This document shows positions 10,019 through 46,000 of a stretch of DNA of 47,051 nucleotides, piece after piece. Under the pieces are notes generated by a model. That model was not told the origin of the DNA. It ran no database searches and was given only the letters and a program-made list of their open reading frames with translations. Position 1 is the first letter of the stretch. Every line of letters begins with the position of its first letter. Location of the stretch: IMG/VR virus record IMGVR_UViG_3300005527_000008, positions 1 through 47,051 of that record; one strand, 5' to 3'. The stretch comes from a virus. The translations under genes were made by a program, and so were the position numbers.

Positions 10019-10645
10019 ATGAATATTAAACTAACCGCGACTACCCTTATTATACTATCAACTACTGCAGCACTGTCGAACGAAGGCGCCTACGTAGGTG
10101 GGTTTCTAGGGCACAATAACTTTCGTGATGAATTCGCAATACGCTCAACTGAACACTCAAAAAAAGTTAAAAATACTGAGCACAATCTAGGTTATGGTCT
10201 GTTCGCTGGTTACGGTAAGAAGATTAACGATTCCTATGTCGGTATTGAAGCAGGTTTATCTAACGGATACCCAAATAAGCGGCATTCCATGGTGGGACAA
10301 CGCCCACATAACCCCGAAGGTTGGAAATACCAAAAGGGTGTCGTGATGTCAATCTCCCCTCGAGTCGGTTACTTCATCAACAGCGAATACATGGTCTATT
10401 CAAAACTTGGCATCGAAAGAAGTAAAGATAAAGCCATTCACTACTTGTATAACCTACGCCCCATGTCCTATTCAAAAACCGTCACAAATTTAGTTCCAGG
10501 CGTTGGAATTGAAAAGGTATCCGCCAATACAAGCGTAAGGCTCGAGTACTCACGTGATTTCGGGAAGAAAATTACTATGAATAAGGATCTCGCTCTTGGT
10601 TATACCAATCAACAAATCAAAGCAGGGTTCACGGTCAAGATATAG
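10019..10645 (+). CDS. Outer-membrane beta-barrel protein (Lom/Omp25-like moron), 208 aa
   Basis: A signal peptide (residues 1-20, ending AALS) precedes GAYVGGFLGHNNF, the common first strand of small outer-membrane porin/opacity-type barrels. Alternating polar/hydrophobic strands follow (YGLFAGYGKK, YVGIEAGLS, MSISPRVGYFI, YMVYSKLGIER, TVTNLVPGVGIEKV, TSVRLEYSRDFG, QQIKAGFTVKI), consistent with an eight-stranded barrel. The final residue is Ile rather than the usual aromatic. Phage-borne barrels such as lambda Lom alter the host surface during lysogeny or infection; superinfection blocking or host adhesion is the inference here. The gene is divergent from terL, lacks a clear ribosome-binding site and adjoins an IS630-type HTH gene, so it looks like a moron acquired by transfer. 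Confidence 0.85.
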   Translation: MNIKLTATTLIILSTTAALSNEGAYVGGFLGHNNFRDEFAIRSTEHSKKVKNTEHNLGYGLFAGYGKKINDSYVGIEAGLSNGYPNKRHSMVGQRPHNPEGWKYQKGVVMSISPRVGYFINSEYMVYSKLGIERSKDKAIHYLYNLRPMSYSKTVTNLVPGVGIEKVSANTSVRLEYSRDFGKKITMNKDLALGYTNQQIKAGFTVKI

Positions 10646-19676: not shown

Positions 19677-20549
19677 ATGTCTTACGGTATTAATGCTCCT
19701 GTCGGGTTCCGCCCAACTTCTTATGTTAGCGGTGCTCCTTGGACAGGCAAATTCTCATACTACTTAATCGAAGGCGGTTACAATACTTCAATTTTCCAAG
19801 GCGACTTGGTTAGTCGAGTGGCCGGCGCAAACGGGTATATTAAAAAACTTCTACCAACTGAAATTAATGGTGGAAACGGAGCCCCCGCGCTCGGTGTTTT
19901 CTTAGGTTGCGAATATGTAACCCCAGGAGCTCAATCAAATATCACTCCTGTAACAAATTCTCCTTATTGGCCTGCTAACCAGGCCATCAAGGCAGGGACA
20001 GTTGTTTACGCGAAAGTTATTGATGACTCAGAAGTCATCTACGATGTCCAAACAAACGGCACCGTAAACTTGGCGTCTATGGGCGGGAATGCTTCCTTTG
20101 CCCTAGGAGCAGGAAGTACAGTCACAGGTCTTTCAGGCGAAGTGATAGATGTGGGCACAATTTCTAAGGCCGCCTCATTCCGCGCATCAGGTGCTAGCAC
20201 TTTAACAGGTACCGTAAACCTAGTTATCCCAGCTGTAGGCATTACCGCAAACTCATTAGTTATGTTAACTCGTAAAACCGCAGGCGGTGGCGCAGGGAAC
20301 TTAACAATCACTATTCAACCTGGTGTTTCTTTCACAGTTGTCTCGAGCAACGGGGCGGATAACTCTGCATTCAATTATCAAGTCCTCCCGGGCACCGATG
20401 ACAATAGCTTCCTGCCTTTGAAGTTGCTTTATGCAACCCAAGTCCCAGGAAACACATTTGACCCAATCACAGGTGCTGGAATTTTGAATGGCAACATCTC
20501 TGTAATCTTAAATAACAGCGCTTATCGCGTTGGCACACAAGGAGTTTAA
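19677..20549 (+). CDS. Capsid-associated (decoration-type) protein with inserted beta-sandwich module, 290 aa
   Basis: The N-terminal part (MSYGINAPVGFRP, GDLVSRVAGANGYIKKLLP, LGVFLGCEYV) and the C-terminal part (LPLKLLYATQVPGN, NISVILNNSAYRVG) read like one phage head protein usually encoded beside the capsid gene. Residues about 166-236 look like an insertion: a Gly/Ser/Thr-rich beta-module with ITANSLVML and IQPGVSFTVVSSNGAD. The same module occurs in the 376-residue protein downstream and at the ends of two fibres. The start ATG 19677 has a near-perfect AGGAGG. Decoration role inferred from position. Confidence 0.75.
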   Translation: MSYGINAPVGFRPTSYVSGAPWTGKFSYYLIEGGYNTSIFQGDLVSRVAGANGYIKKLLPTEINGGNGAPALGVFLGCEYVTPGAQSNITPVTNSPYWPANQAIKAGTVVYAKVIDDSEVIYDVQTNGTVNLASMGGNASFALGAGSTVTGLSGEVIDVGTISKAASFRASGASTLTGTVNLVIPAVGITANSLVMLTRKTAGGGAGNLTITIQPGVSFTVVSSNGADNSAFNYQVLPGTDDNSFLPLKLLYATQVPGNTFDPITGAGILNGNISVILNNSAYRVGTQGV

Positions 20550-20554
20550 TCACT

Positions 20555-21457
20555 ATGGCAACAACTACTTCAGATATTGCCGCCCTCTTGCGTCCAGGCT
20601 TAGCGGCGGTTATTGGCGACTACAACACTTATGAAGACGAATGGAAATCGATTTATTCGCACCATGTGTCAGATAAGCAAGTTGAATACGAAGTCGAAAT
20701 GAAACTTTTGAGCATTGCTCAAATGAAACAAGAAGGCGGTTCAGTCTCTTATGACAAGATGGCGCAACGCTTCATTACTTCGTACCTACACCAATACTTC
20801 GGTATCGGCTTTATCTTAACAAGACAAGCTTTGCTAGATAACTTGTACAAGGACAGATTCCCAATGGCTGTAACGTCATTGAAAGACTCTCTGCGCCAAG
20901 TTAAGAACATCCAAGCAGCGAACCTGTTTAACAACGGTTTCAACCCTGGAGCTCCAATCGGTGACGGTCAGCCTCTATACTCTGTCAACCATCCTATCGA
21001 TGGCGGTATTGTATCGAATACTTTCGTTGTCCCCGCGCAGCTTAATGAAACATCTCTCGAAGATGCGATCACAAACATTAGCTTATTCAGAAACGCAGCT
21101 GGTTTGTTGGTTAAGAATACCCCGAAGCGCTTAATCGTTCCGCCTTCATTGCAGTTTACTGCAAGCAGGTTGCTGAACTCTAAGTATCGCGTAGGAACAG
21201 CTAACAACGATATCAATGCAATCTACCATGACAATTATATCTCTCAAGGATACATGGTAAATCACTTCTTAACATCTCCAACAGCTTGGTTCATCCAAAC
21301 TGATAACTCGAATGGATTTAAATACTATGAACGCGAACCCTTAGACATCGACATTTTCACTGACATTGACACAGATAACCTAAAAGTTCGGGCAATCGAG
21401 CGTTACTCATTCGGTAACAGCGACTTCCGTTCAACTTTCGGTTCTCAAGGTGCATAA
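20555..21457 (+). CDS. Major capsid protein, 300 aa
   Basis: Reads as an HK97-fold phage capsid subunit of the Mu gpT-like kind: MATTTSDIAALLRPGL, then YDKMAQRFITSYLHQYFGIGFILTRQAL, GDGQPLYSVNHP (loop before the P-domain), LIVPPSLQFTASRLLNS and a C-terminal DIDTDNLKVRAIERYSFGNSDFRSTFG. No separate protease or long N-terminal delta domain is visible, consistent with use of a separate scaffold. AAGGAG stands before the ATG. It follows the decoration-type gene after 5 bp. The GroES-like protein of the preceding operon may assist its folding. Confidence 0.85.
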   Translation: MATTTSDIAALLRPGLAAVIGDYNTYEDEWKSIYSHHVSDKQVEYEVEMKLLSIAQMKQEGGSVSYDKMAQRFITSYLHQYFGIGFILTRQALLDNLYKDRFPMAVTSLKDSLRQVKNIQAANLFNNGFNPGAPIGDGQPLYSVNHPIDGGIVSNTFVVPAQLNETSLEDAITNISLFRNAAGLLVKNTPKRLIVPPSLQFTASRLLNSKYRVGTANNDINAIYHDNYISQGYMVNHFLTSPTAWFIQTDNSNGFKYYEREPLDIDIFTDIDTDNLKVRAIERYSFGNSDFRSTFGSQGA

Positions 21458-21485
21458 GTCTAAATAATTTAAGGAGTATCCCTCA

Positions 21486-22616
21486 ATGGCAGTTAATTAT
21501 ATCCCAAACCCATCACAAGGGTCACAGTTTTCAGACGGTGTCCGTGTAGGACCAGGGTTCCAAGCGCAATATACAACTGGCATCGGGGGTACTCCTCCCG
21601 TCCTTTTAGAGACAGCCTCTCTGAATAAAGCCCCAGGTACACAACTCGCGTCATGGGCAGTCTATGACATCGCCCCAGCTGCTTCTGCTGTCAATAACTT
21701 ATCACTAGCGGCCACAACCGTAGGTGCTGGCTATCTGACATTAGCTCCAGCTGCAGGCGTCACAAGAGTATCTAAGTTCGGCCTTACTAACGTTTTGGAA
21801 CTAGACGTTCCTCGCGCTGTGTCTTTGACTCAAGCGGCGGCCGGTAACGTTGGTCAACTAACTGTAACAGGTTATGACCAATACGGCATTCGCATGCAAG
21901 AGTTAATCACGAGCATTGTGGATGAGACGGTAGACGGCGTGAAAGCATTTAAGTGGATTACAGCCCTTTATTTCTCAGCGGCATCCGGTACAAACATCTC
22001 TGTAGGAACAGCGAACGTGTTCGGTCTGCCTTGGAGGGTTGATAACTCCAATTACATTAATTATGCATTTGAAGGAATCCCAGAGGTACCTTTCGACACA
22101 ATTACAGGGAATGCAACATTTGTTGATGCAGCAACCCCACAAGTTATAACGGGCATCCCGTACATGGACGCGGATACAGCTATTATTTGGTCAGTCATTA
22201 CGCCTAACGGGCCAGATGAAGTAACAATTACTCGTCAAAATGGTGTAGGTTTTACATTCACGACAATCGATGGTGACACGTCAGTAGTTTCATGGGCGGT
22301 TTTCCCTAGCCCAGCTGCAATCGAAGGACAAGGCTCAGTAGTCTTCACCCCTGCTTATAACGTAGTGGGAGCAGATCCTTTCCCACCTTCCGCTTCCACC
22401 TTAACGACTCCTGACGTTAGAGGGACATTAGCAGTCCAAAGTATAGACCCCGATGGGATCTTAAGATTAAGTGCCTTCGCTTACGTTTTGGGTTCCAACC
22501 CACTACCAGACACAACAATTCGTAATCTGGATATGTATAGTAACGCCTCTATTCCTAATGAGCTTACCCTAAATGGTTATGCCCAGTTCTGGAGTAGCGT
22601 TAACTCGGGAAGCTAA
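21486..22616 (+). CDS. Virion structural protein with two beta modules, 376 aa
   Basis: All-beta, Ala/Thr/Gly-rich. Residues about 105-185 (PRAVSLTQAAAGNVGQLTVTG, QELITSIVDE, ISVGTANVFGLP) match a domain also present in the next protein (ARTVSITSANDL, FTIRGF, FSVGTGTSG). Residues about 208-277 (GNATFV, DADTAIIWSVITP, GVGFTFTTIDGD, WAVFP) are another copy of the beta-sandwich module of the decoration-type protein and fibres. Position directly after the capsid gene suggests a head surface or vertex component. Function not known. Confidence 0.7.
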   Translation: MAVNYIPNPSQGSQFSDGVRVGPGFQAQYTTGIGGTPPVLLETASLNKAPGTQLASWAVYDIAPAASAVNNLSLAATTVGAGYLTLAPAAGVTRVSKFGLTNVLELDVPRAVSLTQAAAGNVGQLTVTGYDQYGIRMQELITSIVDETVDGVKAFKWITALYFSAASGTNISVGTANVFGLPWRVDNSNYINYAFEGIPEVPFDTITGNATFVDAATPQVITGIPYMDADTAIIWSVITPNGPDEVTITRQNGVGFTFTTIDGDTSVVSWAVFPSPAAIEGQGSVVFTPAYNVVGADPFPPSASTLTTPDVRGTLAVQSIDPDGILRLSAFAYVLGSNPLPDTTIRNLDMYSNASIPNELTLNGYAQFWSSVNSGS

Positions 22617-22619
22617 TAT

Positions 22620-23285
22620 ATGGCAAGGTTAATCACTCAAGTATGGCCTGCTGCCTCGGTTGATGAATATGCCGCGCTTCAAGATGTCCTGGCTGGTGCT
22701 AGCGTTAAGCTAAAAGGCACCAACAGGGGTCTGTTGCCTGGCATTGATTACGGGGCAAGGACAGTTAGTATAACGAGTGCTAACGACTTAAGTGCTGTTA
22801 ACTTTACAATACGTGGCTTTTTATTCAATATTCCCGTGGAAGAAATAATAGCAGGGCCAAACAACAACACTGTTTATACGACGGGTGCCAATTCACAATT
22901 TACATCCATCACAGCGATTACAGTCGATGCGGATGCAAATGAGTTTTCAGTGGGAACGGGGACGTCAGGAGTTTTGAATCCTATGACTCTAAATCCCCAT
23001 GTAAGTAGTTTTGGTGTCTCTATAGATGTTATTGTGGATAATAATATTGAATATTCACTCTTGCAATCTTTGGAAAAAGTGAACCTCATTACTCCCGAAG
23101 GGAACCGACTTAACCAAGAGAGTGTCACGGAGAGTTCGTTCCCGATCCCAGGGGCACTCGTTCCATCAACAGCACGTCAATATGCAGAAATTTTCGGCCC
23201 CGTGCAGACAATCTTATGTCTAATAAATGAGAATACGACTGACGGTGACCTTAAGATTCATATCCTCCAACAGGGGATTGCATAA
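22620..23285 (+). CDS. Virion structural protein, 221 aa
   Basis: All-beta, sharing the VSITS...TIRG...VGTG domain (about residues 40-120) with the preceding protein, so the two likely arose by duplication. The C-terminal part (PGALVPSTARQYAEIFGPVQTILCLI) is separate. Its stop overlaps the next start (TAATG). A head or head-tail interface protein is likely by location. Confidence 0.7.
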   Translation: MARLITQVWPAASVDEYAALQDVLAGASVKLKGTNRGLLPGIDYGARTVSITSANDLSAVNFTIRGFLFNIPVEEIIAGPNNNTVYTTGANSQFTSITAITVDADANEFSVGTGTSGVLNPMTLNPHVSSFGVSIDVIVDNNIEYSLLQSLEKVNLITPEGNRLNQESVTESSFPIPGALVPSTARQYAEIFGPVQTILCLINENTTDGDLKIHILQQGIA

Positions 23286-23566
23286 TGCACAATAGAGACG
23301 ATCATGACCACATCATGCAAGACTTTCGCTACAGCCATACACCAGGTTTGTGTCTTCCCCAACACAAAGCAAGTGGCGGTGGAATGTGGATTCAGGATGC
23401 TATCAAGAATCCTGGAGCTCTTCACAAGTCATTAGGCGTTCCTAAGGCTAGTAAGATACCTCAAGCGAAGCTTGCAAAAACATCTCACAGCAAAAACCCA
23501 CTTTTAAAAAAAAGAGCAACACTTGCGATAACACTTAAGAAGTTCGGCAAGAACCGAGGGGGATAA
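23285..23566 (+). CDS. Small basic protein, 93 aa
   Basis: His-rich start (MHNRDDHDHIMQD), then a Lys/Ala-rich basic C-terminal half (LKKRATLAITLKKFGKNRGG). Start overlaps the upstream stop and its own stop is one base before the next ATG. Similar small basic proteins sit between capsid and adaptor genes in other short-tailed phages; no function is known. Confidence 0.7.
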   Translation: MHNRDDHDHIMQDFRYSHTPGLCLPQHKASGGGMWIQDAIKNPGALHKSLGVPKASKIPQAKLAKTSHSKNPLLKKRATLAITLKKFGKNRGG

Positions 23567-23567
23567 T

Positions 23568-24617
23568 ATGGCCACAAGTGGATCATATGACTTCGGGGAC
23601 ATCCAAGCAGACGATATTATCAGGGAAGCTTATGAGCGGTGCGGCATTGTTTCGGACCTTCTAGACGGGCTTAAAATTCAATCAGCTCTTAGCTCACTCA
23701 ACTTCATGCTCACTCAATGGGTTAATCGTGGACTAAACCTCTGGACAATCGAAAAAGATATGATCCAGATCAATGCAGGGCAGTCTACATATTCTCTTCC
23801 GCCGGCTACAGTTGACATCCTAGAACTTACAGCAGCCCAGATAACGCGTCTCAATGCGTCGGGGACAGCTACTTCAAGTACGGGCACAGCTAACAACGCT
23901 TTCGATGGGAACCCCGCTACAGCGTGCACACAGACAGCCGCTGATGGGTGGATAGAATGGAATTATGGACCTACAGACTTTCAGAATATTCAGTATGTCG
24001 GCATTCAATCAAATGAAACGACACGTTACACAATATCTATAGAATATTCCTATGACGGCATTATCTTTATAGATGCATATCCAAATCCAGATAATGTCTT
24101 ATATCCATTAGGTCAGCAGATATGGTATGTCCTTCCTGCCCCTGTAAATGCCCCTATATGGCGCATAAAAGAGACCAATGGTGGCACATTAAACATACAA
24201 GAAGTTTATTTCTGTATTCCTAATGTATCGCGTCTCATGACCCGCATATCACGAGAAGAATACATAGCCATTGCAAATAAGAGTCGGCAAGCGACAGCAA
24301 GTAGTTATTACATAGATAGGACAAAGAACCCCGTCCTTAACCTATGGCCAACTCCCGATACCACATACCCATACATGATCTACAACAGAGCACGTCAGGT
24401 TCAAGACATAGGGACGCTCCTAAACAACGTTGATGCCCCTCAAAGGTTCTATGAGGCTATTGTTGCAGGGTTAGCCTCTCGCTTAGCAGTAAAATTCGCA
24501 ATGGATAGATACCCGATTCTAGCTGATTTAGCAGAGAAGAGTTATATGCAGGCGGCTCAGCAGGACGTAGAAAAAGTGCCTATGAGAATCCAGCCTAATT
24601 ACATAAGCTATACTTAA
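23568..24617 (+). CDS. Head-tail adaptor (P22 gp4-like) with inserted F5/8 type C (discoidin-like) domain, 349 aa
   Basis: The N-terminal half (ADDIIREAYERCGI, SALSSLNFMLTQWVNRGLNLWTIEK, YSLPPATVDILE) and C-terminal half (SRLMTRISREEYIAI, SSYYIDR, LNLWPTPDTTYPYMIYNRARQVQDIG, ASRLAVKFA) are the known short-tail adaptor that sits below the portal. Between them, residues about 88-217 do not belong to that fold. They carry NNAFDGNPATACTQ, GWIEWNYG, YVGIQSN, TISIEYSYDGIIF and WRIKETNGGTLNIQEVYF, the signatures of F5/8C galactose-binding-like domains. The insertion falls in the adaptor's surface loop, so virions may display a glycan-binding collar. Confidence 0.85.
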   Translation: MATSGSYDFGDIQADDIIREAYERCGIVSDLLDGLKIQSALSSLNFMLTQWVNRGLNLWTIEKDMIQINAGQSTYSLPPATVDILELTAAQITRLNASGTATSSTGTANNAFDGNPATACTQTAADGWIEWNYGPTDFQNIQYVGIQSNETTRYTISIEYSYDGIIFIDAYPNPDNVLYPLGQQIWYVLPAPVNAPIWRIKETNGGTLNIQEVYFCIPNVSRLMTRISREEYIAIANKSRQATASSYYIDRTKNPVLNLWPTPDTTYPYMIYNRARQVQDIGTLLNNVDAPQRFYEAIVAGLASRLAVKFAMDRYPILADLAEKSYMQAAQQDVEKVPMRIQPNYISYT

Positions 24618-24656
24618 CTATATATTACTTTTATTGTAAAAATATCATATACTTAA
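24609..24656 (+). promoter_or_regulatory. Two TATACTTAA motifs (possible late promoter)
   Basis: TATACTTAA at 24609-24617 (overlapping the adaptor stop codon) and at 24648-24656, 30-70 bp before the next gene. TTACTT stands 17 bp before the second copy, a weak -35. The motif matches those before the portal, chaperonin and capsid operons. Confidence 0.45.
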
Positions 24657-24685
24657 TCTATGTATTGTAGTGGATTAAAGTATAG

Positions 24686-24958
24686 ATGCTCCGTCATAAA
24701 GGCAAATACACAAAGATTGATAGAAACAACCCCCTCGCCGTCGCTCGTTGCGACTATAGCGGATTGCTCTGTCGTCATGCCGATTTGATAAAGCAAATGG
24801 AATACAAAGGGACAGCACTCGTATGGACAGGGTTTTGGGTCAATAAAGTATTCGCAGACAAGCCAAACCCTCAAAATCTAGTCCCAGTCCTATTGCCAGA
24901 TCCATACCCAATCTACAGCCCGCGGCCCGATGACTCTAAAAATCCACCAAATTCATAA
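24686..24958 (+). CDS. Conserved small phage protein with CDYSGxL motif, 90 aa
   Basis: The pattern KGKYTKIDRNNPLAVARCDYSGLLC, KQMEYKGTALVWTGFWV and ADKPNPQ is one I recall as a recurrent short protein next to adaptor and fibre genes of short-tailed phages. The two cysteines and His (CDYSGLLCRH) could form part of a metal site. Function unknown. The Pro-rich tail is probably disordered. Confidence 0.75.
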   Translation: MLRHKGKYTKIDRNNPLAVARCDYSGLLCRHADLIKQMEYKGTALVWTGFWVNKVFADKPNPQNLVPVLLPDPYPIYSPRPDDSKNPPNS

Positions 24959-24970
24959 GGAATTAAAAGA

Positions 24971-25777
24971 ATGGCTCTTCCTGAAACCTCAGCATACGTC
25001 GTATCTCAAAGAAGCAATGATGACCCCGTAAACTCCCGCGTCATACAAGGGCAACGAGGCATTGTTATTTCAGACAGCGGCCCAGGTGGATCTATTCTAG
25101 TAGAGCCGACCCAAATGATCGGATCTATCGAAGATATTCTAACCGTAGGGTTCCTCATTAGAGAAGAAGGGGATGTGGCCGATACACGCATTTTAACAAC
25201 TGACGGCTCTATCAATATCACCAATGCTGACGGTGCGAACGGAAATCCAATCCTATCGGTTGCCGCTGGCGGGACAGTGCAGAAAGTGAATGTAGCCGTT
25301 AACGGGACCACTATCGGCAATAGATCGACTTTAAATTTTATCCCCAATGGTGGAATTGGAATCACTGCAACTGATAATGGCGGATCGAATTCAATTGATA
25401 TCGCTCTGTCAGCCTCAGGTGGTGGTGGCGGCGGTAGCGGAACAGTCACCTCTGTAGGCATTACAAATCTCGGCGGCGGTTTAACAATCACGAACTCTCC
25501 CATTACAACAAGTGGGGACATCAACATTGAGATAGATAACCCGGGCGGTGGGGCCCCCTCCGATGCTGAATACATTATTGGAACAGCAGATGCAGGACTA
25601 CCCAATGCTCAAGCTCTAGGGCCCCTATCTACTATTGAATACTCGGGCAGCATACTCATTAACAACACGAATGGCACAACAGGGACACTTGGATATGTCC
25701 CATTTGTAGATGGGTCTTCGGACAAACCATTCATTTTGGGCAACAATATTATGCTCCCATACTTCACACCAGCTTAA
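24971..25777 (+). CDS. Tail fibre-type protein, 268 aa
   Basis: Glycine/threonine/isoleucine-rich beta-structure. A folded N-terminal region (MALPETSAYVVSQRSNDDPVN, GQRGIVISDSGPGGS) may attach it to the tail; then fibre-like repeats follow (ILTTDGSINITNADG, GGIGITATDNGGSNSIDIALS). After a GGGGGGSG hinge comes TVTSVGITNLGGGLTITNSPITTSG, a common tail-fibre motif. First of three consecutive fibre genes. Trimeric assembly inferred. Confidence 0.75.
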   Translation: MALPETSAYVVSQRSNDDPVNSRVIQGQRGIVISDSGPGGSILVEPTQMIGSIEDILTVGFLIREEGDVADTRILTTDGSINITNADGANGNPILSVAAGGTVQKVNVAVNGTTIGNRSTLNFIPNGGIGITATDNGGSNSIDIALSASGGGGGGSGTVTSVGITNLGGGLTITNSPITTSGDINIEIDNPGGGAPSDAEYIIGTADAGLPNAQALGPLSTIEYSGSILINNTNGTTGTLGYVPFVDGSSDKPFILGNNIMLPYFTPA

Positions 25778-25788
25778 GGATAAAAATC

Positions 25789-26829
25789 ATGGCACCTGCA
25801 CCAAATTTTGCTATCGGCAATAATATTCTTACCGCGAGTCCGGGACCTTTAGGATCCATAGGGATAGGATTTAATATTATGACATCCCTGGCAACCGGGG
25901 TCGAAAATATCGGGATTGGGATAAACTCACTCACAACGAACGAATATGGCTCTTATAATATTGCGATTGGGAATGGAGTCCTTAATAGCAACACAACAGG
26001 CGCTGCCAACACAGCGGTTGGAAATTCAGCCCTTAACTCGAACTCCACTGGGGCAGAGAATACCGCGATTGGGTATAGTTCGCTTTCATCCAGCGGCAGT
26101 GGGTATAAAAATGTAGCGATCGGCTATAATTCTCTAAAATTTGCTTACACCACTATAGAATGTACGGCGGTAGGTGCCGACTCATTAATACAAATGGAGG
26201 GAGAGGGGAATACGGCTATTGGGTCGTTTAGTGGTTCCGGCACACAGTCTAACTACTGTACATTTTTGGGGGCATCTACTCTCGCTTCTTCTGGAGTTGA
26301 AAACTCTGTTGCTATCGGACACTCCTGCATAGTAACGACGAATAACTCAGTTGTTCTGGGTAATAGCGGCTCTCAAAGTTCTTTCGTCGGGATAGGGACA
26401 TCCTCTCCAGAATACGCCCTCCATATTGGCTCAGATAGTGGCCTAGATCCTGAAATCTTCATGAACCCAACTGGTGGCACTACGCCACCGCCTGGGACAG
26501 GGATTGTATTAAGTGCTTTTGAAAATTCATTGAATGTGTCTAGCCCATCGGCAGGGCGCTCAGGAAGGGCTGTAACAGCTAGAACCGGGGGGGCAGATGA
26601 CACCTGTGGCAGGGCCACCCTTAACGGAACCGTTAACGTTGTCATCAGCACAACAGCCGTTAGAACAGATTCTATAATCTTATTAACCCCGATCCTTACA
26701 GGGACGCTGGGCGGCATAATAATCGTCGACAGCATTAATGACGGTGTTTCATTCAGCGTTCATAGCAGTCAAGTCGCAGATGACACAGATTTCTTCTGGC
26801 TGATCGTTAATCCGACACAATTAATATAA
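25789..26829 (+). CDS. YadA-head-like fibre protein, short version, 346 aa
   Basis: The first 170 residues are left-handed beta-roll repeats of the trimeric autotransporter head kind (IGIGFNIMTSL, NIGIGINSL, NTAVGNSALNSNSTGAENTAIG). A neck-like SSFVGIGTSSPEYALHIGS follows, then a linker and a C-terminal beta-sandwich module (about 273-342: CGRATLNGTVNVVI, TDSIILL, GVSFSVHSSQVADD). The next gene has the same order but far more repeats, so the two are tandem paralogs. The C-terminal module is shared with capsid-region proteins. Receptor binding inferred. Confidence 0.85.
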   Translation: MAPAPNFAIGNNILTASPGPLGSIGIGFNIMTSLATGVENIGIGINSLTTNEYGSYNIAIGNGVLNSNTTGAANTAVGNSALNSNSTGAENTAIGYSSLSSSGSGYKNVAIGYNSLKFAYTTIECTAVGADSLIQMEGEGNTAIGSFSGSGTQSNYCTFLGASTLASSGVENSVAIGHSCIVTTNNSVVLGNSGSQSSFVGIGTSSPEYALHIGSDSGLDPEIFMNPTGGTTPPPGTGIVLSAFENSLNVSSPSAGRSGRAVTARTGGADDTCGRATLNGTVNVVISTTAVRTDSIILLTPILTGTLGGIIIVDSINDGVSFSVHSSQVADDTDFFWLIVNPTQLI

Positions 26830-26845
26830 TAAAAGGAAAAAGATA

Positions 26846-29275
26846 ATGAACCCAGCTGATTTTGCCATCGGATATAACTGCCTCTTAAACTCAACGGGTT
26901 TGAACTCAAATGTAGCCATCGGATTCGACATAATGACCTCAGTAGCGCCTGGGGCATCTAATGTAGCAGTAGGAAGAAGCATCCTTCTCGAAAACGAGGG
27001 GAGCGGAAACGTAGCCCTAGGGATTGAGGTATTGAACTCAAATACTACTGGCGCCGATAATATCGGCATAGGGAACATAGCACTATTCTCAAATATCTCC
27101 GGCAGCCGAAACGTAGCAATTGGCGCTCAAAGTTCCGTAGCAAGCATATCAAACAGTGATAATGTGGGGGTGGGCACTGGCTCACTTCTTAACATGAGGG
27201 GAGACCAAAATATAGGAGTTGGCACGAGTGCATTGCACGGGTCAGCGGTACAGGAGGATAACACAGGGTCGAATAACGTGGCTGTAGGGCATGAAGCTCT
27301 ACTTAGCAACGCCGCAGGAAGTTCCAATATTGGCATAGGGGACATAGCACTATTCTCAAATATCTCCGGCAACCGAAACGTAGCAATTGGCGTTCAAAGT
27401 TCCGTAGCAAGCATATCAAACAGTGATAATGTGGGGGTGGGCGGTGAATCACTTCTTAACATGAGGGGAGACCAAAATATAGGAGTTGGCACGCGTGCAT
27501 TGCGCGGGTCAGCGGTACAGGAGGATAACACAGGGTCGAATAACGTGGCTGTAGGGCATGAAGCTCTACTTAGCAACGCCGCAGGAAGTTCCAACATAGC
27601 GGTCGGGCCTTCATCTCTACTTAACAACACAACGGGCGATTTCAACGTAGCGGTCGGGTCTTCATCTCTAAATAGCAACACGATAGGCAGTAATAACGTA
27701 GCGGTTGGGAGACAGTCTCTACAGTACAATACAGAGGGCAATGCCAACATAGCGGTTGGGACACAATCTCTACAGAGCAACACGACGGGCAGCTCCAACA
27801 TAGCGGTTGGGTTTGTATCTCTATTTAGCAACACGACGGGCAGCTCCAACATAGCGGTTGGGTCTTCATCTCTTACTAGCAACACGACGGGCAGTACCAA
27901 CTTAGCGGTCGGGCCTTCATCTCTATTTAACAACACGACGGGCAATTCCAACGTAGCGGTTGGAGGTTCATCTCTATTTAGCAACACGACGGGCGATTTC
28001 AATTCAGCTTTTGGGCCTTCATCTCTTACTAGCAACACGATAGGCAGTAATAACGTAGCGGTTGGAACTTTATCTCTATTTAGCAACACGATAGGCAGTA
28101 ATAACATAGCGGTTGGGAGACAGTCTCTACAGTACAATACAGAGGGCAGCTCCAACGTAGCGGTTGGAGGTTCATCTCTAAATAGCAACACAACGGGCGA
28201 TTCCAACATAGCGGTTGGAAATTCATCTCTAAGTAGCAACACAACAGGCACTGCCAACATAGCGGTCGGGCCTTCATCTCTAAATAGCAATACAGAGGGC
28301 GGTTTCAACATAGCGGTTGGAAATTCATCTCTATTTAGCAACACAACGGGCAGTATCAACATAGCGGTCGGGCCTTCATCTCTACTTAACAACACAACGG
28401 GCGATTTCAACTTAGCGGTCGGGCCTTCATCTCTAAGTAGCAACACGACGGGCGGTAATAACATAGCGGTTGGGTCTTCATCTCTTACTAGCAACACGAC
28501 GGGAACGGATAATGTGGCTTTGGGGCTGAATAGTTTAAACGGGAATGTTACCGCGAACGAAAGCGTGGCGATCGGTAATAATGCCCTACTAGCATCAGAT
28601 ACAATGAATAATACCGCAGTGGGCACGCGCGCCTTAAACACTCTTACGAGTGGTAGTAGTAACGTCGCTTTGGGGTGGGAGGCTGGTGCAACGGCAACAA
28701 ACCTCCAGGGCTGCACATTATTGGGCCCTCAAACCTCTGCTACTAACGGTATAAACAATTCCGTTGCCATTGGGGCCAGCGCTTTTGTAAATACCTCTAA
28801 TTCTATTTCTTTAGGGGTAGGGTCGGCGGGAGTGAGCAGCTTTGTCGGGATAGGTAACCCATCTCCTGCTTATGCCTTGGATATAGGGACATTTAACTCT
28901 CTTCCTCCTGAAATCAAGTTGCAAAATGACGCTACCACGCCTGCAGCACCTGTATCAGGAACAATAATAAGAACTGTAAGCAACGCTCTCCGTGTAGAAA
29001 GCGGTTCTCTTTCTAGAACCGGTATAGTCGTTACAGCGAATAACACTGGAGCAGCTCAAACCTGTGGTAGGGCTACTCTTGCTTCTGGGAATGTCACAGT
29101 CGCATCAACAGCTGTCACGGCTAACTCTATAATCGTAGCTACAAAACACTTCCCATCGAGTGACAATGATGGTGTTTTAAGGATCAGTGCTATCGTCCCC
29201 GGCGTCTCGTTTACGCTTACTTCTCACAAAGGAGGAGACACGTCTACAGTCAGCTGGATAATGGTGAACCCATAA
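26846..29275 (+). CDS. Long YadA-head-like repeat fibre, 809 aa
   Basis: Dominated by beta-roll repeats. An N-terminal set of varied units is partly duplicated (89-residue block twice, about residues 73-250). Eighteen 17-residue units follow (about 249-554) with consensus xNIAVGxSSLxSNTTGx, then less regular units, an ALDIG neck (about residue 677) and the C-terminal beta-sandwich module (about 740-809: CGRATLASGNVTV, TANSIIVAT, GVSFTLTSHKGGD). The fold would be a long, stiff trimeric adhesin. The regular repeats also leave the reverse strand free of stops, which creates a false 440-codon ORF. Expected role: host receptor binding. Confidence 0.88.
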   Translation: MNPADFAIGYNCLLNSTGLNSNVAIGFDIMTSVAPGASNVAVGRSILLENEGSGNVALGIEVLNSNTTGADNIGIGNIALFSNISGSRNVAIGAQSSVASISNSDNVGVGTGSLLNMRGDQNIGVGTSALHGSAVQEDNTGSNNVAVGHEALLSNAAGSSNIGIGDIALFSNISGNRNVAIGVQSSVASISNSDNVGVGGESLLNMRGDQNIGVGTRALRGSAVQEDNTGSNNVAVGHEALLSNAAGSSNIAVGPSSLLNNTTGDFNVAVGSSSLNSNTIGSNNVAVGRQSLQYNTEGNANIAVGTQSLQSNTTGSSNIAVGFVSLFSNTTGSSNIAVGSSSLTSNTTGSTNLAVGPSSLFNNTTGNSNVAVGGSSLFSNTTGDFNSAFGPSSLTSNTIGSNNVAVGTLSLFSNTIGSNNIAVGRQSLQYNTEGSSNVAVGGSSLNSNTTGDSNIAVGNSSLSSNTTGTANIAVGPSSLNSNTEGGFNIAVGNSSLFSNTTGSINIAVGPSSLLNNTTGDFNLAVGPSSLSSNTTGGNNIAVGSSSLTSNTTGTDNVALGLNSLNGNVTANESVAIGNNALLASDTMNNTAVGTRALNTLTSGSSNVALGWEAGATATNLQGCTLLGPQTSATNGINNSVAIGASAFVNTSNSISLGVGSAGVSSFVGIGNPSPAYALDIGTFNSLPPEIKLQNDATTPAAPVSGTIIRTVSNALRVESGSLSRTGIVVTANNTGAAQTCGRATLASGNVTVASTAVTANSIIVATKHFPSSDNDGVLRISAIVPGVSFTLTSHKGGDTSTVSWIMVNP
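27061..27594. repeat. 267-bp near-identical tandem duplication inside the fibre gene
   Basis: 27061-27327 and 27328-27594 differ at only a handful of bases and keep frame (89 codons). The low divergence suggests a recent duplication or gene conversion. Confidence 0.85.
27590..28507. repeat. Eighteen tandem 51-bp units inside the fibre gene
   Basis: Each unit encodes 17 residues with AAC(ATA/GTA)GCGGT(T/C)GG and AGCAACACGACGGGC nearly invariant at the DNA level. Variation is concentrated in the codons after the AVG glycine and before the Asn-Thr-Thr turn. The array can expand or contract in frame. Confidence 0.9.
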
Positions 29276-45223: not shown

Positions 45224-46000
45224 TTAGCTCTCTAGCATTTCGATCATTTCATCGCTTTTGGATGTCGCCTTTTCTTCTGGGACATCATCGCTCCATAAGG
45301 ATTCTACACCTTGATCGATTGTTATTTTATCTTCTGTCGTTGAATCATCTACCTCTATGGCTGCTATTATATCAGCAGTTTTAGGAAGATACTTACACAA
45401 TTGTTTGATCGCGGTTTTTCTCCTCATAGCACTGGGATGTGTCTGCCAAGGTCCATTCCTGAAAGTCTTAGATGTTCTCATGATAGCATCGACTTCTTCC
45501 ATGGTGAGTATCTCGGATTGGATAGTCCCCCCTACAAGCTTTGCGTAGGCATAAACACCAATGCAAGCCCCTCTATCTTTAAGGCATGGTCTATGGACAA
45601 GTTGTTCTTCTGTCCCATAGGACACGTAGAACTCATCATTTTCATAAACTTCCTTAGCAACTATGGAGAGGACTTTACCTGTCCTTAGAACGAGTTCTAT
45701 GAGGCCCTGATATCCTATCTGGACCTGGACTTCCTTACCATAAGGGATAAGGTGGACGAGCCCCAGGTGATCTCCTGGCTCGAGTCCTAGCATTGCACAA
45801 CGCATGATAGCGTTGATAAATGATAGGGGATTACAGGCAGCTAATTGTGGACTTTTTCGGATACAAGAGAGAGAGACGCTCGCCATCCTATCTGGGGTTA
45901 GATAGGATGGGAGAACTTTCTTCATCTTGTTCTTGAAATCGTCATTGGATAAGAAATCAACGACAGTTTCTGGCTTCTTTTTATTAACGATTTGGTTCAT
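45224..46000 (-). CDS. recT: RecT-family single-strand annealing protein, 258 aa
   Basis: RecT proteins coat resected ssDNA and anneal it to homologous DNA. The conserved core is clear: LSCIRKSPQLAACNPLSFINAIMRCAMLGLEPG (about 46-78), HLIPYGKEVQVQIGYQGLIELVLRTGKV (about 84-111), VYENDEFYVSYGTEEQLVHRP, GVYAYAKLVGG, and PSAMRRKTAIKQLCKYLP. Normal length. The start overlaps the upstream HTH gene by 17 nt. Works with the YqaJ-type exonuclease encoded upstream. Confidence 0.95.
   Translation of the reverse strand: MNQIVNKKKPETVVDFLSNDDFKNKMKKVLPSYLTPDRMASVSLSCIRKSPQLAACNPLSFINAIMRCAMLGLEPGDHLGLVHLIPYGKEVQVQIGYQGLIELVLRTGKVLSIVAKEVYENDEFYVSYGTEEQLVHRPCLKDRGACIGVYAYAKLVGGTIQSEILTMEEVDAIMRTSKTFRNGPWQTHPSAMRRKTAIKQLCKYLPKTADIIAAIEVDDSTTEDKITIDQGVESLWSDDVPEEKATSKSDEMIEMLES

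Follow-up and report, generated by a model that had tools for sequence, protein, structure and literature searches.

A small beta-sandwich module that in other phages sits at the tip of tail spikes and fibres is re-used on proteins of the capsid region in the uncultured virus analyzed here, and its closest relatives carry it in tandem arrays and, in one of them and to judge by the sequences, in a block that was copied between two neighboring head genes. The window, i.e., the whole stretch of DNA that was analyzed, is a 47 kb virus record (47,051 nucleotides) in which four proteins, designated A to D, contain the module (Table 1). The original prediction had proposed four related segments in these proteins, one in each, and all of them were located where it had put them. 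The four belong to one beta-sandwich family, with PF24146 (K1-lyase_C) detected directly in A, C and D and B recognized as a divergent member by profile comparison and shuffling.

Table 1. Features of the window (positions in nucleotides).
Feature	Position	Strand	Remarks
GroES-like gene	17483		identity by position
Scaffold-like gene	17927		identity by position
Protein A	19677..20549	+	290 aa; predicted beta-tulip capsid cement/decoration protein with inserted K1-lyase_C module
Inserted module of A	20181..20414	+	residues 169-246; zero occupancy in 35 relatives; PF24146 51.8 bits (excised segment)
Major capsid protein (MCP)	20555..21457	+	Phage_capsid_4 / Mu gpT-like; Pfam PF25209, PHROG 4523/371
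Protein B	21486..22616	+	376 aa; head-region protein with divergent module, directly downstream of MCP
Divergent module of B	22095..22316	+	residues 204-277, within region ~196-306
Protein E	22620..23285	+	homologue (alignment and BLASTP) of the L335 head-region protein with three modules
Adaptor	23568		SU10_adaptor
Protein C	25789..26829	+	346 aa; short YadA/LbR-like repeat stalk and terminal module; phrog_4636 tail spike protein, E=1.7e-16
C-terminal module of C	26578..26817	+	PF24146 46 bits (excised segment)
Protein D	26846..29275	+	809 aa; long YadA/LbR-like repeat stalk and terminal module; phrog_4636, E=4e-100
C-terminal module of D	29036..29272	+	PF24146 71 bits (excised segment)

The head genes follow the order GroES-like, scaffold-like, a 154-aa protein, A, MCP, B, E and adaptor, and then come C and D. 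Up to A and the MCP this order is the same in Pelagibacter phage HTVC023P, Roseobacter phage CRP-902, Caulobacter phage GB2A and others, with A immediately upstream of the MCP there as well as here, so that the window is, by gene order, an HTVC023P-like phage. Upstream of these genes, positions 10019-10645 code for an OmpA-type outer-membrane beta-barrel (OMP_b-brl, E=8e-11; OmpA_membrane, 3e-8) that had no match in 13 related records and may be a surface or exclusion protein taken over from a host.

When the whole proteins were compared with Pfam, PF24146, whose curated cut-off is 27 bits, matched residues 171-236 of A (47 bits), 272-340 of C (41 bits) and 739-807 of D (64 bits), in each case over nearly the whole 70-position model, and the excised segments of the three also scored above the cut-off. 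The domain envelopes were residues 162-239 in A, 204-277 in B, 264-343 in C and 731-809 in D. The shared motif that had been proposed stood only in part, since the literal “TANSII” is present in D alone and the equivalent stretches read TANSLV in A, RTDSII in C and DADTAI in B. BLASTP within the window connected A with C (5e-7), A with D (5e-4) and, weakly, A with B (0.04). A profile made exclusively from external phages (Streptomyces, Klebsiella) gave 83 bits for D, 45 for A, 42 for C and 12.8 for B, the last of which was reached by 1 of 20,000 shuffles. The profile of A, C and D found in turn the C-terminus of the K1-specific depolymerase 9k4a (residues 850-920, E=4.4e-7) and, as a weak match, residues 591-669 of the K1 lyase 7w1c (E=0.58); sequence searches of the PDB with A or D alone gave no match, and a literature search for PF24146 returned nothing.

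The segment of B deserves separate treatment. Once excised, its sole Pfam match was PF24146, at 16.1 bits and under the cut-off of 27. Against a profile of the other copies it scored 17.9 bits (14.5 for the whole protein), a segment score that none of 20,000 shuffles reached (maximum ~12 bits), and it stood above all decoys, the best of which among ~4,100 ORFs had 8.0 bits. None of the remaining proteins of the window exceeded 2 bits, the other beta-rich ones included. Chance or convergent likeness among unrelated beta-rich segments, which could be argued from the Ser/Thr/Gly-rich composition of all of them and from B alone falling under the Pfam cut-off, is therefore extremely improbable: the Pfam scores rule it out for A, C and D, composition-matched shuffles and decoys stay below the module scores, and relatives carry four modules at the very site of B. 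Taken together, the Pfam, profile, shuffle and decoy scores indicate that the four segments are one family, of which B is a divergent, degenerate copy. The module also explains an annotation trap, the label of PHROG 24355 (“polysaccharide deacetylase”) falling on head proteins; this family matches A, D, L335 and L304 (the last two being viral contigs described below) only through its last ~70 residues, which are the module.

The usual place of the module is the end of the protein. Among 88 copies at 75 loci in viral contigs, 76 end 12 residues or less from the C-terminus, and the arrays of L335 and L304 account for 11 of the remaining 12. The named carriers infect Streptomyces and Klebsiella, and the genes are annotated as tail fibre, minor tail, tailspike or hypothetical protein; the module is found on the capsule-depolymerase spikes of Klebsiella phages. 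In C and D it takes the terminal position typical of the family; A and B carry it internally. Another 42 records with relatives of A or B gave no match to PF24146, a null that is not proof of absence, and neither did 8 complete phages.

The clearest case of insertion is protein A. It had been proposed that the module interrupts an otherwise continuous head protein, and the alignment with 35 non-redundant relatives confirms this exactly: the 78 residues from 169 to 246 have zero occupancy, and nearly every relative has residues in the flanks (141-168 and 247-259). Homologues without the insertion are many and measure 177-221 aa. They include eight from isolates or complete records (183-198 aa) that align to A on both sides of the segment, more than 150 from viral contigs (177-217 aa), and those of L335 (218 aa) and L304 (221 aa). 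Outside the window, a 290-aa A was seen in near-identical contigs only, and the insert, which keeps the reading frame, returns unchanged in other contigs of this lineage. A search of the DNA for traces of a recent transposition into A gave only an 8-nt repeat around the insert, which chance could produce.

A model of the insertion-free family (built from L014 with 30 sequences; pLDDT 88.5, pTM 0.83) places the insertion point in a loop between strands 137-148 and 155-160. The Foldseek leads for this base were the capsid proteins of T1, FCWL1, TW1 and Pam3, with probabilities of 0.85-0.99 and E values of only 0.0045-0.09 at a TM of ~0.4. In the AlphaFold2 model of full-length A the base was good and both the insert (pLDDT ~57, shallow alignment) and the C-terminus were poor; the alignment rows had been truncated, since the C-termini of the relatives got forced into the insert. 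Foldseek with this model gave no match, and the seven-stranded beta-sandwich fold of the insert is taken from its homologue. The cement proteins of T1 share a beta-tulip fold with TW1 gp56 and lambda gpD and are trimers on threefold and quasi-threefold axes, and the extra C-terminus of T1 gp48 faces outward and has been suggested to aid adsorption (PMC11945409). From the predicted fold we infer, with this support, that A is a capsid cement protein. Separate inserts may also be present in two predicted viral proteins whose structures resemble the base of A, namely A0A6J5KVI4 (258 aa) and A0A6J5KKF4 (306 aa).

A different domain was noticed in the SU10-like head-tail adaptor of the window (23568-24617, 349 aa). 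Its best adaptor stretch is at residues 222-335, and ahead of it residues 98-170 have an F5/8 type C (discoidin-like) match (E=7e-4, below the cut-off). The adaptors of L335 and L304 are also long (358 and 362 aa) and those of L014 and L016 short (226 and 224 aa); this is apparently another beta-sandwich inserted into a structural protein.

For protein B further evidence came from relatives. Its one homologue in the phage collection, in MW202545 (37% over 135 residues), finds 80 others in viral contigs, and all of them are without the region around residues 196-306 of B. These MW202545-type homologues carry another module near the N-terminus (L013 4586-5551; L174-L253), a second, independent fibre module on a head-region protein; in the homologue of L180 it is recognized by PHROG 38233 (“tail fiber protein”, 6e-10). 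A scan of viral contigs with the module profile found L335 and L304, the closest relatives of the window found (MCP identity of 53 and 49%), where the homologue of B comes after the MCP, as it does in MW202545. In these two the protein is much larger (626 aa in L335 and 640 aa in L304) and contains four tandem copies of PF24146, located between the conserved stretches “VFGLP” and “T-DVRG”, i.e., at the site of the module in B, which amounts to an independent identification of the B segment. In L335 the following gene, the homologue of E, carries three more copies that correspond, in the same order, to copies 2-4 of its B gene, with 70.8% amino-acid identity over 260 residues and 72.5% DNA identity over 666 nt, and in a tree each pair of L335 copies groups beside the corresponding copy of L304. 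The ordered match, the identity and the paired tree positions indicate that a three-module block was copied between the two adjacent head genes of L335, most simply after its split from L304. The totals in these relatives are 4 and 7 copies, all in head genes, and E of the window has no module (2.0 bits against the module profile).

The two fibres have a simpler history. C and D, encoded in tandem, are paralogous over their entire length (40% over 357 residues), so their modules represent one acquisition followed by gene duplication. The stalk of D contains a 51-nt tandem array of 18 copies and two 267-nt repeats that are 96% identical (27059-28503). In a near-identical contig (L005, 6549-8723) D has 724 aa instead of 809; either the length of the stalk varies with the number of repeats or these were collapsed in the assembly.

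That the module is mobile between phage proteins, as originally predicted, is supported. The further proposal that it spread by recombination within one genome applies to the block of L335 and is not shown for the older copies of the window. The modules of A, B and C/D are 20-40% identical to one another, that of D is closest to the copies of Streptomyces phages (47%), and no DNA similarity among the copies was detected beyond 33 nt in C/D. The tree built to date the spread within the window placed the copies on long branches without resolution. Separate acquisitions and old internal copying fit the window copies equally well. The minus strand of the window also codes for a RecT-family recombinase (45224-46000, E=5e-45) that may bring about module shuffling.

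The role of the module can be approached from the K1 lyase, in which the domain is a beta-sandwich of four plus three strands and three copies of it come together as a dome by which the trimer is sealed and locked (PMC8822698). Trimer capping is the sole demonstrated role that we have found for the PF24146 family, and on balance it seems probable that a trimer-capping surface knob is what has been re-used on head and fibres. Normally the module is found at the far C-terminal end of trimeric tail fibres and spikes; here it has also been spliced into the loop between two neighboring strands of the predicted cement protein A, and in the head protein B it occupies a site that L335 and L304 also use. 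If A forms cement trimers on the threefold axes, three inserted modules would be brought together over each axis, which makes a capsid knob natural, and the capsid would thereby show the same kind of exposed trimeric tip as the fibres. That the knob is outward and trimeric is inferred; its most likely job would be to stabilise the spike and to set the surface properties of the particle, and weak multivalent adhesion, a guess, would be a plausible added benefit. The module of A is tethered at both ends, as opposed to the free C-terminal tip of the K1 lyase, and this could keep the dome from forming. We have ranked first the reading of a structural knob that may also adhere weakly.

A purely structural part, acting as folding nucleus and trimer clamp on the fibres and as an extra stabiliser of the cement trimer on the head, with no ligand at all, is a possibility that we hold below an even chance. 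It agrees with the role in the K1 lyase (PMC8822698) and with the C-terminal position in most carrier proteins, although more than 150 relatives of A manage without the module and the two relatives that have modules in B lack them in A, so that the head needs no fixed place for it. It is rather unlikely that the module is mainly adhesive, i.e., that on head and fibres it binds a host-surface or environmental glycan and so gives the virion many weak contacts that keep it at the cell until the fibres engage. The arrays totalling 4 and 7 copies would suit avidity, Klebsiella capsule-depolymerase spikes carry the module, decoration proteins are often adhesive (PMC7602432), and in Douge Ig-like domains of the capsid and tail, which have another fold, bind the host surface and glycans (PMC13033339); however, both sugar sites of the K1 lyase are in the beta-helix region, outside this domain (PMC8822698), and with copies only 20-40% identical an identical binding face would not be expected. 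The idea of the same glycan-binding face on head and fibres, part of the original prediction, is not taken as shown because the copies share too little sequence.

Improbable, in our opinion, is neutral hitch-hiking, in which the insertion of a common phage module was tolerated and has been kept by drift. The decay of the B module and the different numbers of modules in close relatives could be read in this way, but the A insert keeps the reading frame, is typical of the family (52 bits) and is seen again unchanged in other contigs of this lineage, and the relatives hold ordered arrays with conserved copies. We give very little credit to the module as a homotypic connector, and not an adhesin, with head-borne domes docking or folding back the module-tipped LbR fibres in a whisker-like manner.

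The base of A may share its predicted fold with the beta-tulip cement proteins (T1 gp48/gp49, TW1 gp56, lambda gpD), and its gene lies, as theirs do, beside that of the MCP; A matched no solved chain by sequence. T1 gp48, too, has an extra domain, outward and C-terminal, whereas the extra domain of A is an internal K1-lyase_C module. Insertion-free relatives of A match phrog_37556, a family of unknown function, several of them end to end; A itself was not reported as a match, having diverged and gained the module. The Klebsiella phage K1 lyase (PDB 7w1c/9k4a) has the same sequence family as A, C and D, in the C-terminal position seen in C and D. The modules of A and B differ in being internal and in belonging to capsid-region proteins without a lyase, and L335 and L304 differ in having tandem arrays.

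A parallel is offered by the phage Ig-like domains (Fraser et al., 2006, via PMC9022992; Douge, PMC13033339), which are likewise small beta-sandwiches re-used on head, tail and fibres, either inserted or appended. Five classes of structural proteins in phages carry them (PMC9022992), and in Douge the ones of the capsid and the tail tube attach to host glycans (PMC13033339). Our module belongs to a different fold family (none of the proteins A-D has a Pfam match to the Ig, Big or FN3 families), and the protein that hosts it is a predicted cement protein and not a major capsid or tail-tube protein. The sharing of Ig-like domains between head and tail is thus extended to a second beta-sandwich family, another instance of phages re-using surface parts across different structures, and one that offers, in insertion-free cement proteins, a single insert, tandem arrays and a copied block, a clean series for studying the process.
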